Shown one piece after another: positions 270 through 22,449 of a stretch of DNA of 22,449 nucleotides. Within the stretch, counting starts at the first letter, position 1. Each line of letters opens with the position of its first letter. Made by a program: the position numbers and the translations under genes. The notes below the pieces were generated by a model that had not been told where the DNA came from, made no database searches, and saw nothing but the letters and a program-made list of their open reading frames with translations. The DNA comes from a virus. Where the stretch lies: positions 1 to 22,449 of IMG/VR virus record IMGVR_UViG_3300033146_002111. One strand, written 5' to 3'.

Positions 270-286
270 AATGAACCAAATAAACA

Positions 287-318
287 AAATTAGTCCTTTA
301 TCTCTAAAGGACTAATTT
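287..318 (-). terminator. Rho-independent terminator after sheath 1
   Basis: The arms 287-299 and 306-318 form a perfect 13-bp stem (core ATTAGTCCTTT/AAAGGACTAAT) with a 6-base loop. On the minus strand it is followed by a T-rich run. It starts 17 bases past the stop of the sheath gene at 335 and should end the virion transcript. The plus-strand side is also T-rich, so it may work in both directions. Confidence 0.9.
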
Positions 319-334
319 CTATTGATTATTTAAT

Positions 335-5003: not shown

Positions 5004-7331
5004 TTATTCACCATTTATTTCTATTGAATTTGTATTGATGTTAACTACAATGTTTCTTATAACACCCTGTACAATAATTATTATATTAACTGAAATAGTA
5101 TCTATACCAGTTCTAATTATTTCTATTTTCCTGTCACTAATATATTCATCTGATAATAATGGAGCTAAAATATCCTCGCAATCATTTTTAATATTAGTAA
5201 TTAAAAAATCACTATTTAATTCAAAAATATTTTTTCTTAATTTAAAAAATAATTCTTTTTTAATATAATTTAAAACTCTGCGAATATAAAATTTATCTGA
5301 ATAATCACCAATTCCTGCAGAGGTCATTACATCGAACAAATAATAATTGTTATTTTCTTCATTATATTTAATATTATTAATAGAATTATAAACTTGTTCT
5401 CTTAATTCATCATTATTATATTCAATTAAAAGTTTCTCGCAATTTAATATAGGTGGTGTTTTATATCCAGCAGGTGATTTACATCTTGAAATTTTATCTA
5501 TTTCTGTTAATATTCCGATTATATCGCCACTTAAAGGCAGCCATCTATATTTAGTGGCATAATTATCCTTTTGTAGTTTCATATTGTTATATAATATATT
5601 ATAACTTGATTGTTTATTAAAATATCTAGTTATACTTGATTTACCAAAATTTTCTATTAAATCCCTATGAGTATTCATTCCACTATCAAACGGTGTAATA
5701 ATACAACTTGAGTTCTTCATCATATCCGATAAAGTCGGCATTAAATTTAAGGATAAATATGAGTTACCGGAGGAAAATGTTTTTATTAATTCTATTGGCA
5801 TTAAATAATAATATGAAGAAATTGAGTTATTTAATAATTCTTTTGATAAATCATAAAATAAATCATAATCATTATAATGTGTATAGTCAGGTAGAGTACT
5901 TTCATTATCTGTAAATATTAAATCTAAAATACTATTATCATTTGTACTATATTCCATCATATTTATTGGTTCATTAATATTATCGGTAGTAAAATCATAA
6001 TTAAATTTGAAATAAACCAACGAAGAATTATTATTAACTATTTCTTCTGCAAAATTATTACTTTTATTTTCATATTTTTTATTTAAAATATATTTTTCTT
6101 TTATACTAAATTCATTGTTTACTCTTTTATAAATGAATAAAATAAATTTATTTTCAAAATCAATGTCTTCGTTTAGGATATTAAAATATGTATTTACTAT
6201 TCCTGTGTATGGGTTCTGCACCGCATCGTCGAATACTTTTCTGTATATATCATTTTTATATATCAATTTATATTCTGATTGTTTAGTATATTCAAACGCA
6301 TTGCTTGATATACTATATTTTTTTATAGAGTTTGTCTCGAAAAAATAATACTCCTCTGCATCTTGTGGTCCGTTAGTAGATAATGTAGTAGGATATAAAA
6401 AATTTATGTTTCCGTATTCACTTGAATAAATTACTAAATTATCTTTTAAGGTTATGGTAGTAAAACCACCAGATAGAACAACTGGTTCACTTGATAATAA
6501 ATTATATTTACCTTTAATTAATTTATTCCCACTTAGAATAATTTCCGAGCCAGCTCCAATATTATATTCACCAGGTATAATAATTTCAGTATGAGGTTCA
6601 CCATTAACCAATTTTGTTCTGATGGATGTTATTTTTTCCTTTTCAAAGTCAACAATTTGAATTTTGTATGCAGCTGAGGTGTTTTCAAATAATAAATTGC
6701 TTTTAGGTACAATCTTTTCGTTTTCTATTCTTGTATGTATAGCTTCTAGTTCCTCTGTATTACCTGTTGTCTCTGTATATAAAATATGTTCAATAATTAC
6801 ATTATCAACTTTTTCATTTGTAATAGGTAATTTATAATTCGTTTCATCTGAACATATAGAAAAAGCAACATCAGTTTCTTTTGTTACAAATTTATTAAAA
6901 ATTTTAAATTTTGTGTTTGAATCTAATCCTGTTTCAGAGGTTGCATCACCTAATGTCAATAAAGCCTTATCGTAATTATATAAACCGCTTGCAGAGGTTT
7001 GGTCTAGGCTTCCACTAGATAACTTATACCCATAATTTTTGGTTGCAAGATTGGCGGTTTCGGTTCTAGTATCTAAAACTCTAATCAAATCTATTGGTTC
7101 ACTATGATTATATTGAAAATAATTATAAATATTAAACCAATTTTTATAATTATTTTCATCTGGTTCGCCAAAAATATCCTTAAAATGGTCTTCATTATAT
7201 ATTGTTATTCTTTTATTCGCCCACCCTGTTTTAGCAGTTAACATTCCAAAAACACTAGCTTGTTTTTTAAGTTTTTTAGTTATTTCAGATGTAGTTTCAT
7301 AGGTTTTAATTCCAGGTAGATCAGTATACAT
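5004..7331 (-). CDS. Tail sheath protein paralogue, copy 2
   Basis: 775 residues, nearly the length of the other sheath (778) but clearly diverged. Shared landmarks are the N-terminal IFGEP turn with a Trp nine residues on (about 52-66), and the core signature YRWLPLSGDIIGILTEIDK near 594-612, matching the FRWIPNVGDITG segment of copy 1 at almost the same position. The C-terminal segment GVIRNIVVNINTN corresponds to the closing strand. The Gly-rich AGINRG segment of copy 1 is replaced here by SPAGYKTPP. It is the first gene of the virion module, with a late-type motif upstream and AAGGA before the ATG, and it is followed at once by the OB-fold gene. It may build a distinct part of the sheath (for example a baseplate-proximal ring) or be an alternative sheath. 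Confidence 0.8.
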   Translation of the reverse strand: MYTDLPGIKTYETTSEITKKLKKQASVFGMLTAKTGWANKRITIYNEDHFKDIFGEPDENNYKNWFNIYNYFQYNHSEPIDLIRVLDTRTETANLATKNYGYKLSSGSLDQTSASGLYNYDKALLTLGDATSETGLDSNTKFKIFNKFVTKETDVAFSICSDETNYKLPITNEKVDNVIIEHILYTETTGNTEELEAIHTRIENEKIVPKSNLLFENTSAAYKIQIVDFEKEKITSIRTKLVNGEPHTEIIIPGEYNIGAGSEIILSGNKLIKGKYNLLSSEPVVLSGGFTTITLKDNLVIYSSEYGNINFLYPTTLSTNGPQDAEEYYFFETNSIKKYSISSNAFEYTKQSEYKLIYKNDIYRKVFDDAVQNPYTGIVNTYFNILNEDIDFENKFILFIYKRVNNEFSIKEKYILNKKYENKSNNFAEEIVNNNSSLVYFKFNYDFTTDNINEPINMMEYSTNDNSILDLIFTDNESTLPDYTHYNDYDLFYDLSKELLNNSISSYYYLMPIELIKTFSSGNSYLSLNLMPTLSDMMKNSSCIITPFDSGMNTHRDLIENFGKSSITRYFNKQSSYNILYNNMKLQKDNYATKYRWLPLSGDIIGILTEIDKISRCKSPAGYKTPPILNCEKLLIEYNNDELREQVYNSINNIKYNEENNNYYLFDVMTSAGIGDYSDKFYIRRVLNYIKKELFFKLRKNIFELNSDFLITNIKNDCEDILAPLLSDEYISDRKIEIIRTGIDTISVNIIIIVQGVIRNIVVNINTNSIEINGE

Positions 7332-7350
7332 AATTTTTATCCTTAATGAT

Positions 7351-7364
7351 TTTCTTTTATTTAT
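7351..7364 (-). promoter_or_regulatory. Late-type promoter before sheath 2
   Basis: The minus strand reads ATAAATAAAAGAAA preceded by a run of A. The motif is the same as before the other sheath and the 498-aa gene. It sits 20 bases upstream of the ATG, just past the terminator of the glycan operon, and should start the virion transcript. Confidence 0.6.
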
Positions 7365-7374
7365 TTTTAAAATA

Positions 7375-7405
7375 AAAAAGGAACCCTTTAATAGAGTTCC
7401 TTTTT
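7375..7405 (-). terminator. Rho-independent terminator of the glycan operon
   Basis: Arms AAAAAGGAAC (7375-7384) and GTTCCTTTTT (7396-7405) form a 10-bp stem with an 11-base loop, followed by a T run on the minus strand. It starts 4 bases after the stop at 7409 and separates the long glycan operon from the virion module. Confidence 0.88.
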
Positions 7406-7408
7406 GAT

Positions 7409-8962
7409 TTAATTTAATTTGTCTATAAAATCAATAATTTCTAAAAATTTTTTATAATATAATTCTTGGTTATTTATATTATGTGAATGTAAGGGTATCA
7501 TTGATAAAAATAAGGATGCTGTTATATAATGAATTACCAATAACTCATTTTTAGAATATCTATGTTCTAATTGATCTAAAAATATTTTTTTGATTTCTTC
7601 TTTTCCGTCATTATATATTTTATAATCACCTTTTTCTTTTATGTATAATTCTGAATCTATAAAATCATAGTCCCAAAGTACAGAGTGACATAATTTAGCA
7701 ACATCGTAATAATGACTACCAAATATTTGTCCTCTTGGATCAATCATTATTAATTTATTTGCAGGAATATCATAAAGTAAATTACTGAAACAAAAATCTC
7801 CGTGTAATAAACTATGATTATCACAACATCTGTTATTTATTATATCTATAAAAGAGTTCATAAAATTATTTATAATTTCTTTATCTACAACTAACTCTGC
7901 AGGAAAATCCTCTAATCTGTTATATGTTTTATCTATCATATTATATAACATATTATTAGGTCTACCGAATTTAGACATATCCTTTAGTAATGTAAAGCAT
8001 TTACTAAAAATTAAATTCCATAATTCCGGTGAATTATCAATATACAAAAATATATCTCTAAGTGAATTATGTTTTATTTTTTCCATTTTATAACTAACGT
8101 CTAGTCCTTTTGTATGTATATTAGTAGAAAAAATTCTTGGTGTATGCAATTTAATCGAATCGGGTAAATTCCTGTACCAATTAAATTCATCAATAATTTT
8201 ATCAGCTTTATTATGACTAGACTTTTTGATTGTACCATTATATTCAACTAACTCATTAAAACTCCTAGATTTTTTAATAGATTTATTTTCAAGATACTCA
8301 TTTAATGTACCAAAATCATCTAACTCTGTTTCTACATAATTTAATATATCGTTTTCAATTATTCTATTTAGTACGTAAGAAAATTGAAATTCGTTATTTA
8401 TTCTAACATCATTTTTGAATTGTTCAGTTAAATATTGAATCATTTTGTTTGTATCTTGGATTAAATATATGCCGGATACTGCATAATCTGTATCCGGCTT
8501 TTCTTTAGGTTTGTCAAATAATTTAGTAACCTCTTTTAAACCATCTACCTCTACCATACACCATCTGCTATAATCTTCTACTTCTTGAACTGATATTAAA
8601 TTCAAATCCATATTATAAGAATTAAAAAAATCTTCTTTTGGTAATATGTCACCTAAAAGTATCAACGTCGATTCATCTGTATAATCAATTCCTGTATATA
8701 TTGCATCCGATAAACCTAATTGTGTTTCTTGTTCAATTAAATTAATTTCAATTGGAAAAGTATACATATTAATAATATCAAATATTTTTTCACTTTGATG
8801 TTTAACTACTATATTTACCTCTGATACTTTTTGTTTTACTAACCATTCTATTTGGTGTATCAATAATGGTTTTTCTTTGTAAGGTAAAATTGCTTTTGGG
8901 TAGTTTTTACCAAGTTCTTTGAACCTTAACCCGCGCCCCGCAGCACATATTAATCCTTTCAT
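7409..8962 (-). CDS. Nucleotidyltransferase fused to choline-kinase-like phosphotransferase
   Basis: 517 residues, two enzymes in one chain. The N-terminal part (about 1-235) is a sugar/alcohol-phosphate nucleotidyltransferase: MKGLICAAGRGLRF is the nucleotide-binding loop and YPKAILPY follows at 21-28. The C-terminal part (about 255-517) has the kinase-like fold of aminoglycoside and choline kinases: HGD with Asn five residues on (H387, D389, N394, catalytic loop) and the Mg-binding DPRG (D408-G411). In Gram-negative phosphocholine pathways (Lic) the kinase and the cytidylyltransferase are separate proteins, so a fusion would couple alcohol phosphorylation to CDP activation. The substrate cannot be read from sequence. 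It is the last gene of the operon; its AAAAGGAG lies at the end of the HAD gene. The first domain might use a sugar phosphate rather than phosphocholine. Confidence 0.8.
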   Translation of the reverse strand: MKGLICAAGRGLRFKELGKNYPKAILPYKEKPLLIHQIEWLVKQKVSEVNIVVKHQSEKIFDIINMYTFPIEINLIEQETQLGLSDAIYTGIDYTDESTLILLGDILPKEDFFNSYNMDLNLISVQEVEDYSRWCMVEVDGLKEVTKLFDKPKEKPDTDYAVSGIYLIQDTNKMIQYLTEQFKNDVRINNEFQFSYVLNRIIENDILNYVETELDDFGTLNEYLENKSIKKSRSFNELVEYNGTIKKSSHNKADKIIDEFNWYRNLPDSIKLHTPRIFSTNIHTKGLDVSYKMEKIKHNSLRDIFLYIDNSPELWNLIFSKCFTLLKDMSKFGRPNNMLYNMIDKTYNRLEDFPAELVVDKEIINNFMNSFIDIINNRCCDNHSLLHGDFCFSNLLYDIPANKLIMIDPRGQIFGSHYYDVAKLCHSVLWDYDFIDSELYIKEKGDYKIYNDGKEEIKKIFLDQLEHRYSKNELLVIHYITASLFLSMIPLHSHNINNQELYYKKFLEIIDFIDKLN

Positions 8963-9788: not shown

Positions 9789-9817
9789 AATATAACCAAT
9801 TTAATTCATTTTGTCAA
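9789..9817 (-). promoter_or_regulatory. Sigma70-like promoter inside the glycan operon
   Basis: -35 TTGACA (9812-9817), a 17-base spacer ending in GGT, and -10 TATATT (9789-9794). The -35 lies within the last codons of the TagF-like gene. A symmetric ATTATAGATATAAT (9778-9791) covers the -10 and the start site and could act as an operator. It should drive the octapeptide-repeat, HAD and nucleotidyltransferase/kinase genes. Confidence 0.85.
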
Positions 9818-10829
9818 TAGTTTTTTTGATTAAATTTAGATAATATTTTATTATATCTTCTGTTTTATTTATTGTTAATAAGTCATCGTATAAATGAAAA
9901 CTTATTTTTTTTGATTTATCAAAATCTTTAATATTTACTATATCTGGAAAAATATCACTTTGATTTACTTTTCCTATACCATCATGTTTAGCATTTAAAA
10001 AACTATCAAATGTATAAACAGATTGTTCTTTATTATGTATATTGGACCGTAAAGCAATTTCTATAAACATTGAACTTGAACCTGAAACTAAATATTGACA
10101 CCTATCAGTAAAATCATATTTCCAAGAATCAGCAGGTAATAAAACAACCTCGCCAAATTTACTTAATTTTTTCCATTTATTAACTTTCATATATTTACCA
10201 ATTATTGGATGTCCTTTGATAAAAATAGTTTTGAATTTTATATCTTTTTCAGTAAATACTTTAGTTAACTGATTTATAAAATCTGTTTGACTACTTTTAC
10301 TTGTTGTTATAATTCCTAATGTATCGTATTCCATTTCTACATTAGGTTTTTTAAAAACGTCAATCATTGTTGGATGCGTTAATGTTGGAATATTATGTGG
10401 ATACTTAATAATATAATCATTCATTTGTTTTATGTTTCTCCAAACATCTAAATAAAAACCTATATTTTTATTCCTCTGAACTCCAGTAACCAAATCTTGG
10501 CCCATTCCATTTAGAGAATGGGGCATTTTAATCATATTTTTATATTTACACATATTTTGAATACTATTAAATTTGGACATTTGGTCTTGCCCATCATGTA
10601 TAGCTACACTATATTTAATTCCTATTTCTTTTGTGTGTACCTCATTACCATCTAAATCCCAAACTGATTGCAATTTTCCTTTTTTCGGACCTTTAATAGA
10701 TTTAATAGTATCGACAATATCATTTTTGTACATAAAGTAAACATCCCAACCTGACGCATCTATTATAGGTTTAAACATATCATATTGATAATGCCTAGAT
10801 TCTAAATACCAAACCGGTTTTAATTCCAT
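9801..10829 (-). CDS. TagF/TagB-like CDP-alcohol phosphotransferase (GT-B fold)
   Basis: 342 residues resembling the catalytic half of CDP-glycerol glycerophosphotransferases, which move a phospho-alcohol from a CDP carrier to a glycan. The supporting motifs are KGHP (205-208), matching the conserved Lys/Arg-x-His-Pro, and LVSGSSSMFIE (247-257), at the place of the Asp-Tyr-Ser-Ser nucleotide-binding segment. The usual Asp-Tyr is replaced by Ser-Gly, which may reflect another CDP substrate. There is no signal or membrane segment, so it should act in the cytosol. It overlaps the upstream gene by 10 bases, and its ribosome binding site (GAGGTT) lies within that gene. Next to two predicted cytidylyltransferases it is the natural transferase of the pathway. 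A plain glycosyltransferase of the same fold is the main alternative. Confidence 0.6.
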   Translation of the reverse strand: MELKPVWYLESRHYQYDMFKPIIDASGWDVYFMYKNDIVDTIKSIKGPKKGKLQSVWDLDGNEVHTKEIGIKYSVAIHDGQDQMSKFNSIQNMCKYKNMIKMPHSLNGMGQDLVTGVQRNKNIGFYLDVWRNIKQMNDYIIKYPHNIPTLTHPTMIDVFKKPNVEMEYDTLGIITTSKSSQTDFINQLTKVFTEKDIKFKTIFIKGHPIIGKYMKVNKWKKLSKFGEVVLLPADSWKYDFTDRCQYLVSGSSSMFIEIALRSNIHNKEQSVYTFDSFLNAKHDGIGKVNQSDIFPDIVNIKDFDKSKKISFHLYDDLLTINKTEDIIKYYLNLIKKTIDKMN

Positions 10830-14057: not shown

Positions 14058-15422
14058 TTATAATTCATAAAAATTTTTTATTTCTGAATAAGGTGCTTTA
14101 TTCAATTGTTTTCCGTTCCATTTTAGTTTATTTATTGTTTCACTAAAAGAAAATTGTAAGTCTTTTGATATTTGAACGGGTTTTTTATTCATTCGTTTTA
14201 AAAATTCTTTAGCGTTTATTTTTATGTTACCTTTTCCTATATCTAAAATTCGTTGGTAATATTTTTCTATAATTATATCTGCATCGTAATTTCTTCTAAT
14301 TACTTCTGTACTTACCTTATTATATTTGTTCCACTCCTCTTCATTTTTAGAAACTTCTATTAATTTATTTAAACCCTCTTCTAATTTATTTGCATTTATA
14401 TAAATTGCTGAGTATGGAATATCAAAAAATGATCTGCCTGAAATATCAAAATTATTCTTAGCCCAATGTTCATCAAATACTGGTACTGTAAGATATGCAG
14501 ATTCCATCATACTATATTCCATTCTGTTGCCATAATTATCTTTTTCTTTTTCTGATAAATGATAAAAATTAGACGAGAATTTAAAATCTGCCATATATTT
14601 CATTCCAACTTCTCTAAAATATGGTTTGCGTACATTAGTCATCATAGGTTTAAAATCTGGGTTTTTTTTATTTATGTAATTTACTAATGGATGTTGTAGA
14701 AATAAGAAATAAGCACTTGGTGATTTTTCTATTCCTAACATTTCAGTAGTAAAATCTGAATTTTCCTTTTTATTTAAAATCTCTTGAAATTTAACAAGTC
14801 TGTCCGGTGCCTTTAGCGAACTACTACGACCTAGATATAAAATTCCATTAGTTTTTTCAGAAAATGGAATACTAGATGAGTATAGGTCCAACTCGTTCAA
14901 GTCTAGTGGTAGAGTATAATCTATAAACCTATCTTGCTCAATATATTCAGGTAAATATTGTTTTATGTCTTTAGCAAAATGTCCTTTTGTATCAAATGTA
15001 ATAACTACATCTGAACTTAGGAAATATAAAGGTAAATTTGGTATTCTTGTATAAATCGGTTTTTTGATTTCATGCATCATATTAACTTTTATAGGCTTAT
15101 TAATAGATGTGTTCCAAAACTTAATTACTTTATATAAAAAATCCAATTCGCATGTTTTATCTGGGTAAGAGTTTAATATTACTACATCATATTCGTTTAT
15201 TCTTTGGATAAAATCTTTGTTTACTAAATCAGTAATTTCTACATTTTCATATAAACCTTTAAAATTCGCTGCTCTTACATAAGATTTACCTATATTCAAA
15301 GAAATAATATCGCATTCGTGATTATTTTTCTCTAACCATGTCTTATGTTGCATAGAAAAAATCGTGACTCCCGTGCCATCTATTGATTTTAACATAAGAA
15401 TTGCTACTTTTAATTTTTTCAT
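14058..15422 (-). CDS. T4 AGT-like (GT72) DNA glycosyltransferase
   Basis: 454 residues from the ATG at 15422. This ATG is preceded by AAAGGTG at proper spacing; a GTG nine bases earlier lies on the ribosome binding site and is less likely. Several segments align with T4 alpha-glucosyltransferase: GTGVTIFSMQHKTWLEKNNHE (16-36, T4 has GCGVTKFSLEQRDWFIKNGHE), VVILNSYP (80-87), LYLGRSSSLK (195-204, T4 WIGRTTTWK), MLGIEKSPSA (228-237, T4 MEGLERSPA), and RMEYSMMESAYLTVPVF (300-316, T4 SLEYTHLELGACGTIPVF) with the paired Glu residues E302 and E307. AGT transfers glucose from UDP-glucose to hydroxymethylcytosine in DNA. The match over the whole length makes a DNA sugar transferase likely, but sugar and base are not readable. 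It is first in the operon, behind a strong sigma70-like promoter. About 50 extra C-terminal residues follow the family core. Confidence 0.82.
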   Translation of the reverse strand: MKKLKVAILMLKSIDGTGVTIFSMQHKTWLEKNNHECDIISLNIGKSYVRAANFKGLYENVEITDLVNKDFIQRINEYDVVILNSYPDKTCELDFLYKVIKFWNTSINKPIKVNMMHEIKKPIYTRIPNLPLYFLSSDVVITFDTKGHFAKDIKQYLPEYIEQDRFIDYTLPLDLNELDLYSSSIPFSEKTNGILYLGRSSSLKAPDRLVKFQEILNKKENSDFTTEMLGIEKSPSAYFLFLQHPLVNYINKKNPDFKPMMTNVRKPYFREVGMKYMADFKFSSNFYHLSEKEKDNYGNRMEYSMMESAYLTVPVFDEHWAKNNFDISGRSFFDIPYSAIYINANKLEEGLNKLIEVSKNEEEWNKYNKVSTEVIRRNYDADIIIEKYYQRILDIGKGNIKINAKEFLKRMNKKPVQISKDLQFSFSETINKLKWNGKQLNKAPYSEIKNFYEL

Positions 15423-15466
15423 TTTTAACACCTTTTTTAATATTGATTTTATTATCTTATGATATA

Positions 15467-15495
15467 AATATAACCAAAAAACTCAGATAAGTCAA
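15467..15495 (-). promoter_or_regulatory. Sigma70-like promoter of the glycan operon
   Basis: -35 TTGACT (15490-15495), a 17-base spacer ending in TTTTTTGGT, and -10 TATATT (15467-15472). The -35 and most of the spacer lie within the terminator hairpin of the previous operon (15479-15512). No other strong promoter is visible until 9817, so this one should drive at least the first four genes. Confidence 0.85.
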
Positions 15496-15512
15496 GAGAT
15501 TTATCTGAGTTT
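15479..15512 (-). terminator. Rho-independent terminator overlapping the next promoter
   Basis: Arms 15479-15490 and 15501-15512 form a perfect 12-bp stem (AAACTCAGATAA/TTATCTGAGTTT) with a 10-base loop, followed by a T run on the minus strand. The loop holds the TTGACT -35 box of the next promoter, and the T run is part of that promoter's spacer. It ends the primase operon 29 bases after its last stop codon. Confidence 0.9.
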
Positions 15513-15541
15513 ATTTATTGTTTTAGTATGTATAAAATAGC

Positions 15542-15865
15542 TTATTTAATATACTTAACTCCGTTTGCCTTAGCATATTTAATCATTTTTTTATTTTTCT
15601 TTAATAGATAACTAAATATTAATTCCACATCATAATGTTTTAGGTTAAGGATAATGTCATCTATTTTTGCATCTTTATCAAAATACCCAATGTTTTTTTC
15701 ACCCCAATAGATTATTTGTTCCTTAGCGTCATATCTAATATCCATTAACGCATTTCTTTTAGCAGCAACGTCTCGCCTTTTTTTGATTTCACTAATATCA
15801 GTATTTACATCTTCTTTTATTACCCGGCTTATTATTTGTTTAATAAGTTTCTTTTTTATTTCCAT
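15542..15865 (-). CDS. Small basic protein with capsid-tag-like N terminus
   Basis: 107 residues, rich in Lys and Ile; family not recognised. The first 19 residues (LIKQIISRVIKED) form an amphipathic helix like that of the winged-helix protein at 2796-3146, and both continue with an Arg-Arg-Asp-x-Ala-Ala segment followed within a few residues by Asn-Ala-Leu. The rest (about 45-107) is predicted mixed alpha/beta with a basic C terminus. Its start overlaps the end of the primase gene by 10 bases, and its ribosome binding site (TGGAG) lies within that gene. It is the last gene before the terminator at 15479-15512. Whether the shared N terminus is a targeting signal is inference. Confidence 0.6.
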   Translation of the reverse strand: MEIKKKLIKQIISRVIKEDVNTDISEIKKRRDVAAKRNALMDIRYDAKEQIIYWGEKNIGYFDKDAKIDDIILNLKHYDVELIFSYLLKKNKKMIKYAKANGVKYIK

Positions 15866-16830
15866 TTACTTAACTCCAGTTTAAGTTTAAATTCTGCAAG
15901 GTCACCCTTTGATATTGTAGATTTAACCAATTTATTTATATTTATTCCTAACATTGATAATTCGTTTAAATCTTTATTATTATATTGTTCGAACCAAGTA
16001 CTTATTGAATATCCTAATTTAACATATTTTAACATAGAAGTTAATCCTGTTAAATCATTATCAAATGTAATTATTACATTTTCCTTATTCAAACCAAATA
16101 ATTCTATATATTCTAAGTTTACTTTAGCAGTATTAACTGCTATCCAATTAGGATCTACATTTGATATATCATAAATTGATTCACCGATATATACTTTTTT
16201 ATTCTTATTAATATTAAATATATTATGATATGAAAAGTACTTATCATCAAAAATTGTTATCTTATTTTTAACCTTAGTTAATGTAGGATTTATGGACTTT
16301 AAAGTGAAACCATATATTTCATTGTTTTTGTAATACAAAGGGTGTACTATATAATTGTCATAGGAATAAAACGTTTTTATTAGTTCCTGTGAAACTTTTC
16401 TTTTTACTAGATATGCATAATGTAAAGAATTTGGTTTTATCTTATTAAATTTTTTAATTTTTGTTATATCTATTAATAAATTTTTGTCTATATTAGTTTT
16501 TACTAATAATTTTTCTTTTTTGTCATTCTGAATAATTAAATTTTCATCTTTTAAACTTGATAATTTAGTTTCATTTATTTCTGCTTTATATTGTGAATAT
16601 AAATCTTTATGAAATGTCCATAAATAAGAACTGAATTTCATTCCTGCTTGACAATTATGACAATAATATCTATAATCTTTATTTTTAAGGAAATATCCAC
16701 GTGATTTATATCTGTGACTATTACCTTCATTACAAACTTTACATTTGCATCTGATAAATGAATCAGTTTCAAGAACTCTTTCAAGTCCATTTCTGAATTT
16801 ATCAAAGTATTTTTCTTCTAAACTAAACAT
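15856..16830 (-). CDS. DNA primase, T4 gp61-like
   Basis: Makes RNA primers for lagging-strand synthesis, acting with the replicative helicase. The 324-residue product is close to T4 gp61 (342). The N-terminal zinc finger uses C30-x2-C33 and C57-x2-C60 (with C28 nearby), in the CxxC...YYCHNC arrangement of phage primases. The TOPRIM-type core shows VYIGESIYDI (213-222, catalytic Glu E217), then VIITFDNDLTG (252-262, the acidic FDND) and KDLNEL (286-291). The start overlaps the stop region of the membrane-protein gene; the ribosome binding site is weak (AAGAAAAA), so coupling is likely. No helicase gene is seen in the window. All key residues are present. Confidence 0.85.
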   Translation of the reverse strand: MFSLEEKYFDKFRNGLERVLETDSFIRCKCKVCNEGNSHRYKSRGYFLKNKDYRYYCHNCQAGMKFSSYLWTFHKDLYSQYKAEINETKLSSLKDENLIIQNDKKEKLLVKTNIDKNLLIDITKIKKFNKIKPNSLHYAYLVKRKVSQELIKTFYSYDNYIVHPLYYKNNEIYGFTLKSINPTLTKVKNKITIFDDKYFSYHNIFNINKNKKVYIGESIYDISNVDPNWIAVNTAKVNLEYIELFGLNKENVIITFDNDLTGLTSMLKYVKLGYSISTWFEQYNNKDLNELSMLGININKLVKSTISKGDLAEFKLKLELSKWK

Positions 16831-16831
16831 A

Positions 16832-17038
16832 TCATTTTTTCTTGTTGAAAAAATTTAAAATCATTGCTAATGAAAACGCAAATAATGTAGTTCCAATAAA
16901 TACAATGAACGGTATCATTAACTGAATTGGTGAAAAATCTATTATTTTAAAATAATCTAGGTACATCATTAAGAAATGAATAGCTAATGAAATATGAAAT
17001 GGTTTGTTATTTTTTAAATTCATTTTATAAGAATACAT
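16832..17038 (-). CDS. Small two-helix membrane protein
   Basis: 68 residues from the ATG at 17038, chosen because AAAGGAGTAAC sits just in front of it. The frame is open further upstream to 17071, but those ATGs lie in a duplicated 12-base unit (ATGATAAAAAGA, 17048-17071) that contains the ribosome binding site itself. Two hydrophobic segments (about 16-30 and 38-62) predict an inner-membrane hairpin with a basic N terminus and a Lys-rich C terminus. There is no known family. It is the first gene of the primase operon behind a strong promoter. Small membrane proteins in this position are often phage early proteins acting on the host envelope, but nothing here proves it. Confidence 0.6.
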   Translation of the reverse strand: MYSYKMNLKNNKPFHISLAIHFLMMYLDYFKIIDFSPIQLMIPFIVFIGTTLFAFSLAMILNFFNKKK

Positions 17039-17089
17039 TTTGTTACTCCTTTTTATCATTCTTTTTATCATTCTCTTTATTATATCTAT

Positions 17090-17118
17090 AATATAACCAA
17101 TTAAAGTTAACTTGTCAA
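17090..17118 (-). promoter_or_regulatory. Sigma70-like promoter of the primase operon
   Basis: -35 TTGACA (17113-17118), a 17-base spacer ending in GGT, and -10 TATATT (17090-17095). The symmetric ATTATAGATATAAT (17079-17092) seen at 9778-9791 recurs here, as does the leader up to the AAAGGAGTAAC ribosome binding site. Confidence 0.87.
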
Positions 17119-17143
17119 GAAAAAAGATTTATTAAATGTAAAA
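17114..17143. repeat. 30-bp exact repeat of 22225-22254
   Basis: These 30 bases are identical to 22225-22254. In the other copy they end inside the left arm of a 26-bp hairpin. Here only that arm remains and its partner arm is missing. The sequence beyond is replaced by a short AT segment and then the 80-bp repeat, so this looks like half of a terminator-promoter unit cut by a recombination event. Confidence 0.85.
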
Positions 17144-17159
17144 TAAATTATTAGCCGTT

Positions 17160-17239
17160 TAAGTGTCTTTTAGTGTACTTTGATAGTGAAATGATAAAAT
17201 TATATGGTTGGAGTAAGAAAGTGAAAGGAATGTACTACT
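17160..17239. repeat. 80-bp direct repeat, copy B
   Basis: Same orientation as 190-269, 77 of 80 bases identical. This copy includes the stop codon (17235-17237) of the terminase small subunit gene and forms its 3' flank; no terminator hairpin is seen there. The AGTG boxes are better kept than in copy A (an extra TAGTG at 17185). The two copies bracket about 17 kb that holds the virion, glycan and primase genes. Confidence 0.92.
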
Positions 17240-17828
17240 CTATCACCTCTACGTCCTCTATTTCTATCTGTTGAGGTTCTTCTTTTATTTTTTTAATAAT
17301 ATCCGATAGATTTGTATTTATTACTTCACTATCATTATCCTTAGCTTCTTTTTCCAATCTTTGTTTCTCTTCAATTTCATATTGTTGAAGTGTATATATT
17401 TCGCGGACATTTTTATATAAATCTAACATCATTTTACTTGACTGATTCATAGAATTATATAATTGCATAATAACATTTATTTGTGCAGGTGAACTTAAAT
17501 TCTTTTTAGTCATTGGAACTGCTGCTAATATCCTTTTTGTTTGACTCATTATTTGTTTCATATTATCTCTAATATCTAAATAATCATGCACAAAGTTTTT
17601 TGTTAATTTATCTATGGTATTATCAGTTATACTATTTGAAACTGTTTCATTTTTTAAATCCAATTCAAAAATTTCGTCTGGCTCTTCTTGTAAACTTTCT
17701 AAGTCATTACTCATAGGATCAATACCTATATCTGATATTTGACCTAATAAATCTGACATCTCAGCCTCCTGTTTCTCTTGCATTTTCTTTTGAATAATTT
17801 GGTTTCTTAACTCTGCTTTACTTTTCAT
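17235..17828 (-). CDS. Terminase small subunit, T4 gp16-like
   Basis: 197 residues, slightly longer than T4 gp16 (164). The central region (about 75-150) matches gp16 by eye: an acidic lead, then DYLDIRDNMKQIMSQTKRIL (T4 [20 protein letters not shown]), a loop with SSPAQINVIMQLYNSMNQSSK (T4 [20 protein letters not shown]) and LDLYKNVREI (T4 LKLHKDMKDI). gp16 forms ring oligomers through this coiled coil, recognises packaging start sites and stimulates the large terminase. The N and C termini are long acidic/Gln-rich helices. AGGTAAG precedes the ATG. In T4 the next gene is the large terminase; here an 80-bp repeat and a new operon follow instead, and no large terminase is in the window. It is transcribed with early-type genes from the promoter at 19418-19446. 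Confidence 0.72.
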   Translation of the reverse strand: MKSKAELRNQIIQKKMQEKQEAEMSDLLGQISDIGIDPMSNDLESLQEEPDEIFELDLKNETVSNSITDNTIDKLTKNFVHDYLDIRDNMKQIMSQTKRILAAVPMTKKNLSSPAQINVIMQLYNSMNQSSKMMLDLYKNVREIYTLQQYEIEEKQRLEKEAKDNDSEVINTNLSDIIKKIKEEPQQIEIEDVEVIE

Positions 17829-17833
17829 TTATC

Positions 17834-18292
17834 TTACCTAAAAATTATATTTTTTGGATATTTATATTTGATATGAACCTGTTTAATTTCCTGTTCTATA
17901 ATTAACCTAGTAGATTCTGGTATTTTGCTCCAATCTTTGTTATATGTTTTTTTATAAAACTCTAAAAATGATTTAGCATCCATATTCGTATTTTTTAACT
18001 TATAAGGACCTGATTGCCAGTCACATATCATTTCCTTAATATTATTTATAATTGGTGATTCATTAAAAAATAAAGTTGCTATATGATGACTTTTTGTATT
18101 TCTATGTTCTATTTGAATTTGTTCGTTATATGTCCCTATAAAAATTGACCATATTTTATCTAAGTCATGCCTCCTAATAGTAGGGTAATTTAACCAGTCA
18201 TTAAATCCATATACTTTTAAATATATTTCATTCACATAATATAAATGTTTAAGTGCATAAATGGTTCTTTTTATCCTTTGAATATAAGTCAA
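17834..18292 (-). CDS. Uncharacterised protein, possible HD-like fold
   Basis: 152 residues starting at TTG (18290-18292). The start is supported by AAAAGGAG six bases upstream. The segment RRHDLDK (about 40-46), a later EHRNTKSHH (about 62-70) and CDWQSGPY (about 90-97) recall small phage proteins of the DUF5662 kind, which carry His-Asp pairs and may bind metal. I am not sure of this assignment. It overlaps nothing and lies 5 bases before the terminase small subunit gene in the same operon. No membrane segment is present. Confidence 0.5.
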   Translation of the reverse strand: MTYIQRIKRTIYALKHLYYVNEIYLKVYGFNDWLNYPTIRRHDLDKIWSIFIGTYNEQIQIEHRNTKSHHIATLFFNESPIINNIKEMICDWQSGPYKLKNTNMDAKSFLEFYKKTYNKDWSKIPESTRLIIEQEIKQVHIKYKYPKNIIFR

Positions 18293-18308
18293 TTAGTACT
18301 CCTTTTTG

Positions 18309-18998
18309 TTATTTTCTTTTACTGGGTATCATTTCTAGTTTAGTAGTTCCTGCAATTGTTTTATTATTTATTATAATTTCCTTTGAAATTTCACATTCGC
18401 CCTTTATTATAGATGCACCTTGAATAGTTACCAATCCAAAAACCTGAGCATCCTCACATATAACTGCCAAATCCTTAATAAGAGCATGACCTCCAACTCT
18501 TGCGTTATCAAATACCTCTACTTTATCAGTAATATCACATTTACCACATATTGATGAGTTTCCATATATTTTAACATCGTCCCTTATCCAGCATCCGTGA
18601 TATACATATGCATTTTCAAATATTTGGGCATTACCATAAATAAGAACATTTTGCATTACCTGAGCATCATCATATACCCTAGCATTACCATAAACAGCAG
18701 CACGTTGATGAACCCAACTATTACCTTCGTGTGATAAATTATGTTCACCCTCAATCCAGCCACCCTTAATATCTTCTGTAATTTTACCGAAATTTTTAGT
18801 AGATATGATTTCTTTTAGTATTACTCCACCCTTACCCTTTTTCTCTTTTCCTGTAAATTTATATTTTTTGTTTATTATAATTTTTGTATTTTTGATTGCA
18901 TCTATATTATTACAGAAAGGACATACCAATCTATTTTCTCTAATATATGTTTTTATAGTTTCTTTTTTGCAAATTGAACATTTAGAAATTCTTGCCAT
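18309..18998 (-). CDS. Zn-ribbon plus left-handed beta-helix protein (YdcK-like)
   Basis: 229 residues. The N terminus carries a four-Cys zinc ribbon (C7-x2-C10 and C26-x2-C29). From about residue 80 the sequence is a chain of hexapeptide-type repeats: GWIEGEHNLSHEGNSWVHQRA, then many turns of the x-A-x-V-Y-G-N-A type (residues about 95-205). This is the left-handed beta-helix seen in E. coli YdcK and in many phage proteins. YdcK-like proteins are called acyltransferases by fold only; the acceptor and donor are not known and no catalytic His can be assigned here. AAGGAG precedes the ATG. It is the second gene of the operon that ends with the terminase small subunit. Confidence 0.7.
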   Translation of the reverse strand: MARISKCSICKKETIKTYIRENRLVCPFCNNIDAIKNTKIIINKKYKFTGKEKKGKGGVILKEIISTKNFGKITEDIKGGWIEGEHNLSHEGNSWVHQRAAVYGNARVYDDAQVMQNVLIYGNAQIFENAYVYHGCWIRDDVKIYGNSSICGKCDITDKVEVFDNARVGGHALIKDLAVICEDAQVFGLVTIQGASIIKGECEISKEIIINNKTIAGTTKLEMIPSKRK

Positions 18999-19014
18999 TT
19001 GGTACTCCTTAGTT

Positions 19015-19359
19015 TTATATTCCTAAACAATATTTATCAGCATCTTCAATTTCTTCAAGCCTTAGAGCATATTCTATAATTCCAATTCCTGTTAATCCAT
19101 TAAATTCTAAACGGCCTGATAATGAATCTAAATGGTACCAAGAATTATTAAAATCTAAATATCCTGTGAATAGTGGTTTAAATTCCCATACCAATTCATC
19201 TCTTAACCAAGTAGTACTTTTAATTCCCTCTGCCCATAAATCTAATTTCTGTTTATAATTTTTATCGCGTTTTGCCTTACTAATCATTAATTCTAGTAAT
19301 TTTAAAGGATTAATTTCGTGTATCTTTTTAATTTGTTTGGTTTTTAACAAGTTAATCAT
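19015..19359 (-). CDS. Uncharacterised protein, 114 aa
   Basis: No family recognised. The N-terminal 40 residues are basic and helical; the rest has several aromatic-rich strands (GYLDFNNSWYHLDSLSGRLEFNG) followed by an acidic helix. AAAAAGGAGAACC precedes the ATG. It is the first gene after the promoter at 19418-19446, and its leader is almost identical to the leader of the gene at 20293-21006. That position suggests an early accessory protein. Confidence 0.6.
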   Translation of the reverse strand: MINLLKTKQIKKIHEINPLKLLELMISKAKRDKNYKQKLDLWAEGIKSTTWLRDELVWEFKPLFTGYLDFNNSWYHLDSLSGRLEFNGLTGIGIIEYALRLEEIEDADKYCLGI

Positions 19360-19417
19360 TTGGTTCTCCTTTTTTAATTTTCATTCTCTTTATTATATCT
19401 ATTGATTTATCAAGATA

Positions 19418-19446
19418 AATATAACCAAAAAAAGTCCTTTTGTCAA
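19418..19446 (-). promoter_or_regulatory. Sigma70-like promoter of the terminase-small-subunit operon
   Basis: -35 TTGACA (19441-19446), a 17-base spacer ending in TTTTTTTGGT, and -10 TATATT (19418-19423). The -35 is in the loop and second arm of the terminator 19431-19453. It should drive four genes down to 17235. Confidence 0.85.
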
Positions 19447-19453
19447 GGACTTT
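19431..19453 (-). terminator. Rho-independent terminator overlapping the next promoter
   Basis: Arms AAAGTCCTT (19431-19439) and AAGGACTTT (19445-19453) form a perfect 9-bp stem with a 5-base loop and a T run on the minus strand. It ends the transcript of the two genes and pseudogene upstream. The hairpin also contains the TTGACA box of the next promoter. Confidence 0.88.
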
Positions 19454-19470
19454 AATTGAATTATGTTAAT

Positions 19471-19882
19471 TTATTTTTCGTATACATTACCCTCGGCATC
19501 TACTCTTATCAAAGGACCATCTGACTTAAATTCCACTCTTGTTAAAAGTTTTTCAAATAAATTCATACGTACATCTGTAAGTTTATAATGAATGTATTGA
19601 GAGGTGAAAATATTCATTTTACCTTTAGTCAAATCTATACTATCACAACATATATAATATCAGGTTGATCTTTATATACAACTCTATCTGTTTTTCAAAT
19701 ACCTCTGATTTTGTATAATGATTTATAGGTACTCTTACCTTTTCCCTGTTATTACACTTTCAATATACATCATTTCTGTACATTGATATATCGCTAATTA
19801 CTTTATATAACCCAGTTGCACCTTGTTGACGATTAACTACATAGTCACATTCTTTAAAAGGAATAAATGGTTTTAATGTATT
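19471..19882 (-). pseudogene. Decayed tandem copy of the 135-aa gene
   Basis: This 400-base gap has no intact gene but still holds coding remnants. One frame, from 19882 to a stop at 19643-19645, reads TLKPFIPFKECDYVVNR then LYKVISD, clearly related to KKPFIPFVLGDYVTHR and LYKVVSQ of the intact gene at 19881-20288. It is broken by TGA at 19760-19762. After a frameshift near 19640, another frame continues to the stop at 19471 and ends FKSDGPLIRVDAEGNVYEK. At the DNA level, 19856-19873 is identical to 20077-20094. There is no start codon or ribosome binding site; the 5' third is absent. This is a tandem duplication decaying by stops and frameshifts. A 48-codon ATG frame near its end might still be translated. 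Confidence 0.7.
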
Positions 19883-20288
19883 AATATTTTTCCTTTTTCC
19901 TTTGCTCTACTTTAGTTAAATCTTTAACTAATTGATTATATAAAATTTTACCAGTTTTAACATTACGGATTACACAGGCATCAAAAATTTCAGGTTTTTG
20001 TGAAACTACCTTATAAAGGTCAAAATCATTTTTATCTGTTGGCTCTATGCGATGTGTTACGTAATCGCCTAACACAAAAGGAATAAATGGTTTCTTGAAT
20101 TTTTTGGGTTGTACAAATTCATTTCTCTGTATCAATTGATTTTTAATTTTAACATATTCATCTTTAGATATTAACCAAATCATATTATTCGTTATTGAAT
20201 GTACTTTTGTTTCTGTAACTACTATTTTATCAGCAGGAATAATATGTTTTTCTTTATTCACCCAATCCATAAATTCTATATATTTCAT
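19881..20288 (-). CDS. Uncharacterised protein, 135 aa
   Basis: Family not recognised. The N terminus (1-55) is a mixed alpha/beta region; residues about 62-110 form a small beta-rich unit (KPFIPFVLGDYVTHR ... LYKVVSQ ... ACVIRNVKTGKILYNQ), which could be an SH3-like barrel reading YKV and ILYNQL as strands. The C terminus is a basic tail. Its ribosome binding site (GAGGTAAC) overlaps the stop of the preceding gene. A degraded relative follows immediately downstream, so this locus has duplicated. Confidence 0.6.
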   Translation of the reverse strand: MKYIEFMDWVNKEKHIIPADKIVVTETKVHSITNNMIWLISKDEYVKIKNQLIQRNEFVQPKKFKKPFIPFVLGDYVTHRIEPTDKNDFDLYKVVSQKPEIFDACVIRNVKTGKILYNQLVKDLTKVEQRKKEKY

Positions 20289-20292
20289 TTTG

Positions 20293-21006
20293 TTACCTCA
20301 TTATAATTTTATTATTATGTTTATATAGTTTTAAAAAACTCGATTTAGTTCCTGAATGTCTTTTGCATTGTTCAAAATCATAAATTTCATAACCAAATCC
20401 GTCAGTTAATATTTTTTTAGTAGAAATATAATACTTATCATTATTAAATCCTGTACTACCTGCACTTTCAACATGACAGCCATCTGATAACCATTTTTCA
20501 AATAATTCTATATTTTTATCCTTTGAATGTATTACTAAATAACCTTCTTCGTCAATTTTACCTATTGACCGATCTCCTATATGTATATGACCTCTTATAT
20601 CATATTCGCCTATTACAAAATGCAGTTCCTTATCATAAACTTTTAAATTTAATGTAGTATCATTTTTCTTTAGTTCTTTAAGTAATTCTTGTTTATTTTC
20701 TATTTCAGTTTCTAAAATATATATTTGCTCTTTTATATTAGTTTCTGTTTCGTAAGTTTTTTTAATTATAGGTTGTTTAATATTTGGTAATTCATTCTGA
20801 ACATTTATTTTTGTATCTGTATTTACTAGATAATGACAATTATTTTTTATATAAGTATCTACCTCTCTAACTATTCCGTCATTGCCATATAAACAAATTC
20901 CTTTTGATGTTAAATCAGCAAGTTCAAATGTTGAATAATAACCAATTACATTTTTATTAGTCGCTTCAGTTTCGTTCGCGTACACTGCATATACAATTTC
21001 GCCCAT
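20293..21006 (-). CDS. Uncharacterised coiled-coil protein, 237 aa
   Basis: Family not recognised. Residues 1-65 form a small alpha/beta unit with YAVYANETEA at the front, as in short phage proteins that handle time-out or tag-like roles; the match is not strong enough to name. Residues about 88-118 are a coiled coil. The C-terminal half (about 120-237) is beta-rich with repeated Gly-His and Asp turns. AAAAAGGAGAACC precedes the ATG, with a leader shared with the gene at 19015-19359. It heads the operon started at 21043-21072. Confidence 0.6.
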   Translation of the reverse strand: MGEIVYAVYANETEATNKNVIGYYSTFELADLTSKGICLYGNDGIVREVDTYIKNNCHYLVNTDTKINVQNELPNIKQPIIKKTYETETNIKEQIYILETEIENKQELLKELKKNDTTLNLKVYDKELHFVIGEYDIRGHIHIGDRSIGKIDEEGYLVIHSKDKNIELFEKWLSDGCHVESAGSTGFNNDKYYISTKKILTDGFGYEIYDFEQCKRHSGTKSSFLKLYKHNNKIIMR

Positions 21007-21042
21007 TAGGTTCTCCTTTTTTAATTTTTATTCTCTTTATTA

Positions 21043-21072
21043 TATATAATCAAAAAAAAGTCCTTTTGTCAA
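21043..21072 (-). promoter_or_regulatory. Sigma70-like promoter, weaker variant
   Basis: -35 TTGACA (21067-21072) with an 18-base spacer to TATATA (21043-21048), or a 17-base spacer to TTATAT. The GGT before the -10 seen in the other promoters is changed to TGA. It should drive the genes at 20293-21006 and 19881-20288. Confidence 0.65.
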
Positions 21073-21078
21073 GGTTTT
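21056..21078 (-). terminator. Weakened terminator hairpin
   Basis: On the minus strand AAACCTT-GACA-AAAGGACTTT followed by eight T. Compared with 19431-19453 the first arm lacks GT, leaving a short CCTT/AAGG stem with a 2-base bulge. It lies 9 bases past the stop of the gene at 21087 and probably lets some transcription through. Confidence 0.5.
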
Positions 21079-21086
21079 TAATTGAA

Positions 21087-21359
21087 TTAAATTAAAAATT
21101 CATCTAAATAATTTTTTAATTTAATTACCTCTTTTTTATTTAATATAGTTTCTGAAAAATGGCCGTAATAATTATTATATCCAAAAATATATTTCAGTGC
21201 TACCCATATCCTTTGAATAAAATTATATGATGTGTTCATATATTTAGTAAAATATATTTCTTTATGGTAATCCTCATTAGTAAAATACATAAATTGTAAA
21301 TCGTGCGCAGGTTCAAATTTACAATCGCAATTAACATTTAAGATTTTTCTGTTTTCCAT
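21087..21359 (-). CDS. Uncharacterised small phage protein, 90 aa
   Basis: No function assigned. The centre (about 45-70) reads FIQRIWVALKYIFGYNNYYGHF, a Trp-Lys-Tyr-Ile-Phe-Gly-Tyr pattern that recurs in small uncharacterised phage proteins; two Cys (11, 13) lie near the N terminus. It ends in an acidic helix. The start overlaps the previous gene by 22 bases, and its ribosome binding site (AAAGGATC) lies within that gene. Confidence 0.6.
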   Translation of the reverse strand: MENRKILNVNCDCKFEPAHDLQFMYFTNEDYHKEIYFTKYMNTSYNFIQRIWVALKYIFGYNNYYGHFSETILNKKEVIKLKNYLDEFLI

Positions 21360-21514
21360 TTACGTGATCCTTTTAGTAATTGATAAATTTTATTCTCTGC
21401 TATTTGAAGCTCTTCTATATCTAATTGCTCTAGTGCCTCAATTAACCTACTATATGTTCTTTTAGATTTCTTACAAGTACATTTATTTTTATCCTCTCTT
21501 TCACCTTTATTCAT
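21338..21514 (-). CDS. Small charged helical protein, 58 aa
   Basis: Open from ATG 21514 to TAA 21338: a basic N terminus with a CTC pair (C12, C14), then a helical part (YSRLIEALEQLDIEELQIAE) and a basic C terminus. AAGGAG lies 9 bases upstream, inside the end of the preceding gene, whose stop overlaps this start (ATGAATAA). It overlaps its neighbours on both sides, as expected for a real gene in a tight operon. Function unknown. Confidence 0.65.
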   Translation of the reverse strand: MNKGEREDKNKCTCKKSKRTYSRLIEALEQLDIEELQIAENKIYQLLKGSRKWKTEKS

Positions 21515-21926
21515 CTATTGACTCCTTTACTTTTATATTGTATTTCCTAGTATTTTCTAATAGCCTTAGATTATTAACTTTATAATTATATTTTTTTATC
21601 TCTATACAATGGACCTCTGAATTTAAAAATTTTTCAAATATTCTAGTAATATTAATTTTTTCATTATCTATGGTTATGAATTGCTCACTTGATTTATCCT
21701 TATATACGACAGTTTCTATTTCGTAAAATTCTGAATGCGTATATTCTGGGTCTGTTGAATATGACCATGTTGCTATGGACGCTACTGATATTATTAGTAA
21801 AGCAAGTGTACCTCCATTGATAATGGTCAATTCAGAATTATTTTCGGCAAGTGAAATTAAATATGTAAAAAATAAAATGATTAATATTATTGTAATTATT
21901 AAGATGATTGGTGTTGGTATGAACAT
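21507..21926 (-). CDS. Small membrane protein with cytosolic or periplasmic C domain
   Basis: 139 residues. Two hydrophobic segments (about 6-27 and 38-55) predict a membrane hairpin; the remaining 80 residues are hydrophilic and beta-rich (FYEIETVVYKD, EQFITIDNEKINITR, VHCIEIKKYNYKV). No family is recognised. AAGGAGTAAT precedes the ATG. It lies in the operon started at 22201-22229. A role at the host envelope fits the topology but is inference. Confidence 0.6.
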   Translation of the reverse strand: MFIPTPIILIITIILIILFFTYLISLAENNSELTIINGGTLALLIISVASIATWSYSTDPEYTHSEFYEIETVVYKDKSSEQFITIDNEKINITRIFEKFLNSEVHCIEIKKYNYKVNNLRLLENTRKYNIKVKESIDE

Positions 21927-21997
21927 TTTATTACTCCTTATAAATTATTATTAGTACTATTATAAAAGATATTGATAGCATATATAACATGTGCATT

Positions 21998-22162
21998 TTA
22001 ATTTAATAGTTTCCAGTTAATATATGACCATTCTTCTATACTTGTACCCCAATCTGAAACTACATCCATAATCTTACAATCGCTATATTCCTTTGGAACT
22101 ACTAATATTTCTTCTGCTACTAATTTTTCAGCATCGTTAAAACATTCTACTTTAATTTTCAT
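21998..22162 (-). CDS. Small acidic protein, 54 aa
   Basis: Open from ATG 22162 to TAA 21998, starting MKIKVECFNDAEKLVAEEI and ending with a Trp-rich tail (VSDWGTSIEEWSYINWKLLN). AAAAGGAGTAT lies 5 bases before the ATG and a strong promoter lies about 45 bases upstream, so this is the first gene of its operon. Strand, helix and strand segments suggest a small compact fold; function unknown. Confidence 0.7.
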   Translation of the reverse strand: MKIKVECFNDAEKLVAEEILVVPKEYSDCKIMDVVSDWGTSIEEWSYINWKLLN

Positions 22163-22200
22163 TTTATACTCCTTTTATATTATTTTCTTTCTTATGATAT

Positions 22201-22229
22201 AATATAACCATTTAATGTTATTTAGTCAA
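22201..22229 (-). promoter_or_regulatory. Sigma70-like promoter of the small-gene operon
   Basis: -35 TTGACT (22224-22229), a 17-base spacer ending in TGGT, and -10 TATATT (22201-22206). The long hairpin 22240-22299 lies just upstream. Confidence 0.85.
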
Positions 22230-22254
22230 GAAAAAAGATTTATTAAATGTAAAA
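22225..22254. repeat. 30-bp exact repeat of 17114-17143
   Basis: Identical over 30 bases to 17114-17143. It covers the -35 box of the promoter and the outer 15 bases of the left hairpin arm, so this copy is the intact form of the terminator-promoter unit. Confidence 0.85.
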
Positions 22255-22299
22255 AAGTACATAATATTAATTTATTATGTACTTTTTTACATTTAATAA
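22240..22299 (-). terminator. 26-bp perfect hairpin, terminator of the upstream gene
   Basis: Arms 22240-22265 and 22274-22299 are perfectly complementary over 26 bases around an 8-base loop, unusually long for this genome (others are 9-13). The inner part (AAAAAAGTACATAAT) looks like a normal terminator with an A/T flank. It begins 15 bases past the stop of the partial gene at the window edge and can work on both strands. Confidence 0.85.
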
Positions 22300-22314
22300 T
22301 TTAAAAAATGTCAT

Positions 22315-22449
22315 TTAATTGATATACATAGTTAATTCAAATTCTTTTGTATTAGTTTCTCTATTATAGACCTGAGCGTGTAATGCTTTTCTTTGAGGTT
22401 TTCCATTTCTAGTTAATGAAAATGTATGTTTTTTAGTCTGACCAGGTCT
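22315..22449 (-). CDS. C-terminal part of an uncharacterised protein
   Basis: An open frame enters from the window edge and ends at TAA 22315, giving 44 residues: basic, beta-prone (HTFSLTRNGKPQRKALHAQ, then FELTMYIN). It is followed by a strong terminator, which supports a real gene end. Too little is present to name a family. Confidence 0.6.
   Translation of the reverse strand, partial: RPGQTKKHTFSLTRNGKPQRKALHAQVYNRETNTKEFELTMYIN

Follow-up and report, generated by a model that had tools for sequence, protein, structure and literature searches.

Putative PeSL-like terminator-promoter cassettes in a very AT-rich contig of a T4-like phage

Introduction

T4-like phages carry promoter-terminator cassettes known as PeSL (promoter-early stem-loop) elements, which were reportedly described by Arbiol in 2010. 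These elements have been proposed to offer homology for gene shuffling in T4-like phages. Two vibriophages that matter for the present comparison, nt-1 and KVP40, are said to have been compared with each other by Comeau in 2014. For the Kayvirus group, which includes Staphylococcus phage K, RNA-seq of a related phage has mapped 58 early promoters and 42 terminators (PMC7698491).

Terminators and neighboring promoters have also been connected through the polymerase itself. In vitro, the Escherichia coli enzyme mostly stays on the DNA after intrinsic termination and can restart at nearby promoters, with downstream reinitiation at 37%, or 55% when sigma70 is added (PMC6978380). A coupling of promoters near terminators via the retained polymerase was suggested by Harden et al. 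in 2020 (PMC6978322), and a study from 2024 gives a useful range of about 1000 bp for reinitiation, an in vivo demonstration still lacking (PMC11347151).

The intergenic elements described here, from an uncultured phage, are very probably a compact form of the promoter-terminator cassettes already described in T4-like phages.

The contig and its genes

The window, that is, the whole stretch of DNA analyzed, is a viral contig of 22,449 bases with 25.6% G+C, and its - strand carries all the main genes. Two of the encoded proteins resemble the tail sheath (gp18-like), family matches point to a T4-type DNA primase and a terminase small subunit, and the ORF at 15431-14058 (-) has a weak match to DNA alpha-glucosyltransferase (AGT domain). 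Judged by these predicted proteins, the window thus comes from the genome of a T4-like myovirus; the carrier is thus of the same kind as that of PeSL elements, as indicated by the sheath and by the primase and terminase families. The part from 14500 to 22449 has no near DNA match in the phage collection, protein searches of viral contigs returned no relatives of the primase, the tail sheath or the 598-aa ORF (12616-10820), and neither Rfam families nor tRNAs were found within the window.

Several genes, at 12616-10820, 8962-7409, 15431-14058 and 10829-9801, perhaps serve sugar or DNA modification: by reading, this run resembles a nucleotidyltransferase-aminotransferase fusion, a nucleotidyltransferase-kinase fusion and glycosyltransferases.

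A promoter family on the coding strand

Six sigma70-like promoters of the form TTGAC[AT]-N17-TATATT, recognized by sequence only, lie on the - strand of the window. Five are exact and one is degenerate, with -35 boxes starting at 22229, 21072 (the degenerate one), 19446, 17118, 15495 and 9817. The strong sigma70-like promoter characteristic of PeSL elements is in this way present at the sequence level. The string GGTTATATT occurs five times in the window, in every case on the - strand and 15 nt downstream of TTGAC, with an expectation of 0 under an order-3 Markov model. The earlier note had proposed counting the combined promoter and hairpin motif; the motif does recur, in a family that is larger than that note recognized (it also includes 17118 and 9817) and in which only three of the six promoters are accompanied by a convincing terminator hairpin.

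Hairpins around the -35 box

The coordinates of the hairpins and promoters are collected in Table 1. Read on the - strand, positions 15512-15467 run AAACTCAGATAAATCTC-TTGACT-TATCTGAGTTTTTTGGT-TATATT. Hairpin A has a stem of AAACTCAGATAA/TTATCTGAGTTT with a 12-bp core, the -35 box occupies its loop and 3' arm, and its T-run falls within the 17-nt promoter spacer. Positions 19453-19418 (-) read AAAGTCC-TTGACA-AAAGGACTTTTTTTGGT-TATATT, and here the 9-bp stem of hairpin B takes up the -35 box in its 5' arm and loop. The stems of A and B are unrelated in sequence, and their phase is identical: the T-run begins 16-17 nt past the start of the -35 box and forms the end of the spacer. Two claims of the earlier note, that the -35 box lies inside the preceding terminator-like hairpin at A and B and that the T-run doubles as promoter spacer, are borne out by the folds in Table 1 and by the fixed phase of a T-run within a 17-nt spacer between same-direction genes. 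Stems of the B type have only three G-C pairs, which counts against the cassette explanation given below.

The weakened copy that had been noticed around 21072 is indeed one, since the mutated 5' arm of hairpin C leaves only a 4-bp core, which is missed at a detector threshold of -6 kcal/mol. For hairpin D, a 92-nt segment folds with a dG of -29.3. This hairpin had been placed at 22201-22299 as lying directly next to the -35 box; the adjacency holds, with a gap of 10 nt, and the sharing of bases does not, as not one base is common to both.

In general, the predicted stem-loops of nested sites have a dG of -10 to -15 and are followed by a T-run on the downstream side, where a terminator needs it, starting in most copies at +16/+17 relative to the first base of the -35 box. 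The nested sites stand 14-49 nt past the previous stop codon, between genes of the same direction, and where a start codon could be identified it follows 63-92 nt after the -35 start, with a ribosome site of the AAAAGGAG type.

Table 1. Predicted hairpins and promoter elements of the window
Feature	Position	Strand	Details
Standalone terminator, related arms	286..319	-	AAATTAGTCCTTTA gaga TAAAGGACTAATTT; dG -15.4
Standalone terminator	7375..7405	-	AAAAAGGAACTCT attaa AGGGTTCCTTTTT; dG -14.5
Promoter F	9789..9817	-	TTGACA-N17-TATATT; no hairpin; -35 within 3' end of upstream ORF
-10 box, promoter A	15467..15472	-	TATATT; precedes glycosyltransferase-like ORF 15431-14058
Terminator-like nested hairpin A	15479..15512	-	AAACTCAGATAAATC tctt GACTTATCTGAGTTT; dG -14.9; then TTT (6 T in total)
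-35 box within hairpin A	15490..15495	-	TTGACT; spacer to TATATT 17 nt
Promoter E	17090..17118	-	TTGACA-N17-TATATT; without terminator hairpin at promoter
-10 box, promoter B	19418..19423	-	TATATT; precedes ORF 19359-19015
Terminator-like nested hairpin B	19431..19453	-	AAAGTCCTT gacaa AAGGACTTT; dG -10.1; 7-T run extends into spacer
-35 box within hairpin B	19441..19446	-	TTGACA; motif and fold
Decayed nested hairpin C	21056..21078	-	around -35 at 21072-21067; 5' arm AAAGTCC -> AAAAACC
Promoter D	22201..22229	-	TTGACT-N17-TATATT; motif match
Tandem hairpin D	22240..22299	-	ends 10 nt upstream of -35 (22229-22224); ATCTTTTTTC between

Sister contigs and the frequency of nesting

When the combined-motif pattern was run over 2.9 million viral contigs, it found two contigs from one sample with many copies, G003 (59,178 bases) and G004 (19,078 bases), both of about 25.5% G+C, in which the motif recurs every 3-4 kb along the coding strand. 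These contigs may belong to the same genome as the window or to a close relative, and their copies are non-independent. Across the window, G003 and G004, the exact motif TTGAC-N15-[AG]GTTATATT has 29 matches on the coding strand and 0 on the other, with 0 expected under an order-3 Markov model. A looser promoter pattern applied to IMG/VR was abandoned: among the matches listed, most were apparently due to chance, and it was the composite pattern that found true relatives.

Terminators were called as hairpins with a dG <= -7 and at least 5 T in 7, and a site was counted as nested when the T-run started +11 to +23 after a promoter-like -35 box, the null being a circular shift of positions. The three contigs hold nine nested sites against 0.66 expected, a number reached in 0 of 1000 shifts, although the copies are related by descent or duplication, so that these odds overstate independence and do not count independent origins. 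When terminator calling was not a prerequisite, a hairpin with a dG <= -7 was present in 9 of 82 promoter-like sites with a spacer T-run, against 0.07 expected with shuffled arms. Of these nine, eight are clear and one (dG -14.5, on the - strand of G003) overlaps a standalone terminator and is without the family -10. The nested overlap is non-random.

Nesting is found in 8 of the 31 family promoters of the three contigs, and the other 23 are not nested. At window position 21072 and at G003 48709 the stem is lost and the promoter kept. At G003 58526 the 3' half known from copies with a GACAA loop is paired with AAAAGTCCTTTT, located upstream, over a 19-nt loop (stem AAAAGTCCTTTT/AAAAGGACTTTT), so the stem is kept there despite a differing loop. 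In the stretch 6288-7754 of G003, a nested cassette lies upstream of a transposase gene.

Dispersed near-identical cassettes

A blastn comparison of the window with G003 gives 59 matches, mostly intergenic, and the matched window positions are 24% coding, as opposed to 90% for the whole window (ORF call). Among proteins, the window and G003 share one weak match only. The cassettes, with identities of up to 94-99% between the intergenic copies, are therefore far more alike than anything else that both contigs share. As with PeSL elements, many similar copies are dispersed among different genes, and near-identical cassettes stand before unrelated genes, an arrangement compatible with recombination between copies shuffling genes.

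A further intergenic repeat, about 110 nt long, has the form GGTTCATTAGTAGTACATTCCTTTCACTTTCTTAGTCCAACCATATAATTTTATCATTT...AGTACACTAAAAG. It is found at 319-189 and 17239-17119 (-) in the window and at 9835-9966, 23497-23600, 27640-27776, 39395-39530 and 50729-50857 in G003, being up to 94-99% identical between the contigs. Often a standalone AGTCCTTTA terminator immediately precedes it and an early-type promoter follows; it may represent a further class of promoter or a structured RNA.

Nested hairpins in other phages

Named phage genomes were examined with these detectors as well. Nested sites exceed expectation in vibriophage nt-1 (9 vs 0.48 expected), vibriophage KVP40 (5 vs 0.53) and Staphylococcus phage K (6 vs 0.73). 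In the vibriophages a typical unit reads AAAGGGTTGACAGATGTCAGCCCTTTTTTGTATTAT, its -35 box being part of the 5' arm. In phage K the six sites have several different stems and a T-run offset of +14 to +17, and tandem terminators are also abundant (15 vs 2.6 expected). Two contigs unrelated to the window, G005 and G006, have the nested architecture with other stems, AACACCC...TTGACTTATGGGTGTTTTTTGGTTATAAT being common to both. With this detector, no nested sites were found in T4, T5, CP220, Los1, HTVC008M, phage OC or S-CRM01. RB49 has none either, and carries instead 13 tandem terminators upstream of the -35 box (2.5 expected).

On the - strand of RB49 (AY343333), for example at 158969, 123294, 122881, 121736, 117409, 115033 and 43031, the promoter spacer holds a GC-rich hairpin with no T-run, such as TTGACAGGGGATCGGTGATCCCCTATAAT; because the T-run is missing, these hairpins are probably not terminators. 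Another contig, G001 (73.6 kb), was rejected as a relative: it carries a promoter motif resembling that of the window on one strand, but has spacer hairpins without a T-run, has no DNA in common with the window and is unrelated to it by blastn. From about 54000 to 72600 it shows a dense one-strand row of promoters with -10 boxes TATATT/TATAAT, often with GC-rich spacer hairpins and extra upstream TTGAC boxes.

Proposed function and origin of the cassettes

The window elements are very probably PeSL-like composite terminator-promoter cassettes of a large T4-like phage, which would provide compact insulation and possibly gene shuffling. In the proposed mechanism, transcription arriving from upstream would end at an intrinsic terminator, and the next transcript would start from a host-type, sigma70-like promoter, presumably active early, within the same roughly 45 bp, with the -35 box held in the hairpin, the T-run in the spacer and the -10 box directly after. 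Such a cassette would take up very little room while insulating neighboring small operons and letting each be driven independently. Near-identical copies, being scattered among unrelated genes, may in addition provide homology through which genes are shuffled, in line with what has been proposed for PeSL elements, and recombination may make use of them. The composite may itself have arisen from standalone terminators, a route suggested by the related arms of the clade's standalone terminators: a GACAA loop between CCTT and AAGG yields TTGACA for free. The AAATTAGTCCTTTA/TAAAGGACTAATTT arms of the window terminator, for instance, recur in G003 at 9844, 27653 and 50727.

It is possible, if somewhat doubtful, that sequence economy is all there is to the overlap, with standalone terminators having AGTCCTT/AAGGACT arms gaining TTGACA at no cost (CCTT-GAC-AAAAGG) and spreading by duplication, the overlap having no function. 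This is a narrower form of the cassette explanation rather than its opposite. The nearly identical arms of the clade's standalone terminators speak for it, and so does the phase: a T-run would leave both promoter boxes intact only if placed within the spacer or ahead of the -35 box, which would explain why unrelated phages reach the same phase. However, hairpin A and the phage K hairpins have stems of unrelated sequence, meaning that one and the same phase arose repeatedly, which suggests selection for co-located signals. The dyad around the -35 box, a common operator position, could also be taken for the binding site of a repressor or activator instead of a terminator. This is very improbable and was discarded, given that stem sequences vary while the geometry is constant: the stems differ between A and B, phage K has several different ones, each dyad is followed by a one-sided T-run, and the sites lie just past stop codons.

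The earlier note had seen in the overlap a compact switch, with RNA polymerase that leaves one operon sitting on the promoter of the next. Spelled out, a polymerase terminating in the spacer would stay on the DNA and restart at the promoter it covers, so that upstream transcription activates the next operon. The predicted release point, judging from the geometry, would precede the next start site by about 12 nt, E. coli RNAP is retained and reinitiates downstream in 37-55% of terminations in vitro, and the gene coupling suggested by Harden et al. concerns promoters near terminators (PMC6978322). Nevertheless, such a handover is unlikely. As reinitiation acts across hundreds of bases in vitro, with an estimated range of up to about 1000 bp, the overlap would be unnecessary, and a polymerase already at the promoter would be expected to block an arriving one before the hairpin is transcribed. 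About three quarters of the family promoters (23/31) are non-nested, decayed copies keep the promoter, and the terminators of RB49 lie upstream without shared bases, so the switch is not supported. There is likewise little probability that nested elements evolved independently in several large phages as an operon-to-operon relay, with each promoter capturing the polymerase that is set free on its spacer.

On the cassette explanation, composite promoter-terminator elements are also present in a T4-like lineage that is uncultured and very rich in A+T. One uniform test finds the nested form again, with unrelated stems, in vibriophages and in a phage of Staphylococcus, and not in T4, T5 or RB49. 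This form offers a natural test bed for the reuse of terminated RNA polymerase at an adjacent promoter. If the coupling is true, it would explain a convergent design; if not, the elements are a neat case of sequence economy.

Comparison with known systems

The PeSL cassettes of T4-like phages are likewise reported to combine a sigma70-like promoter with a terminator stem-loop and to be present in many copies among variable genes, in the same orientation as the genes. RB49 differs from the window in that its stem-loops lie upstream of the -35 box and share no bases with it. The nested hairpins of nt-1 and KVP40 emerge with the detector used on the window, yet their stem and promoter sequences are unrelated to those of the window, and their -35 box lies in the 5' arm, whereas in the window clade it lies in the loop and either arm. 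Nested sites are present as well at the early promoters of Staphylococcus phage K (Kayvirus), which belongs to an unrelated phage family and infects an unrelated host. Finally, post-termination recycling of RNA polymerase (Kang 2020; Harden 2020; Song 2024) has been proposed to couple two transcripts at a promoter adjoining a terminator, as the nested elements might; in contrast to these, it was demonstrated in vitro with the E. coli enzyme, acts over longer distances and involves no dedicated overlapping element.
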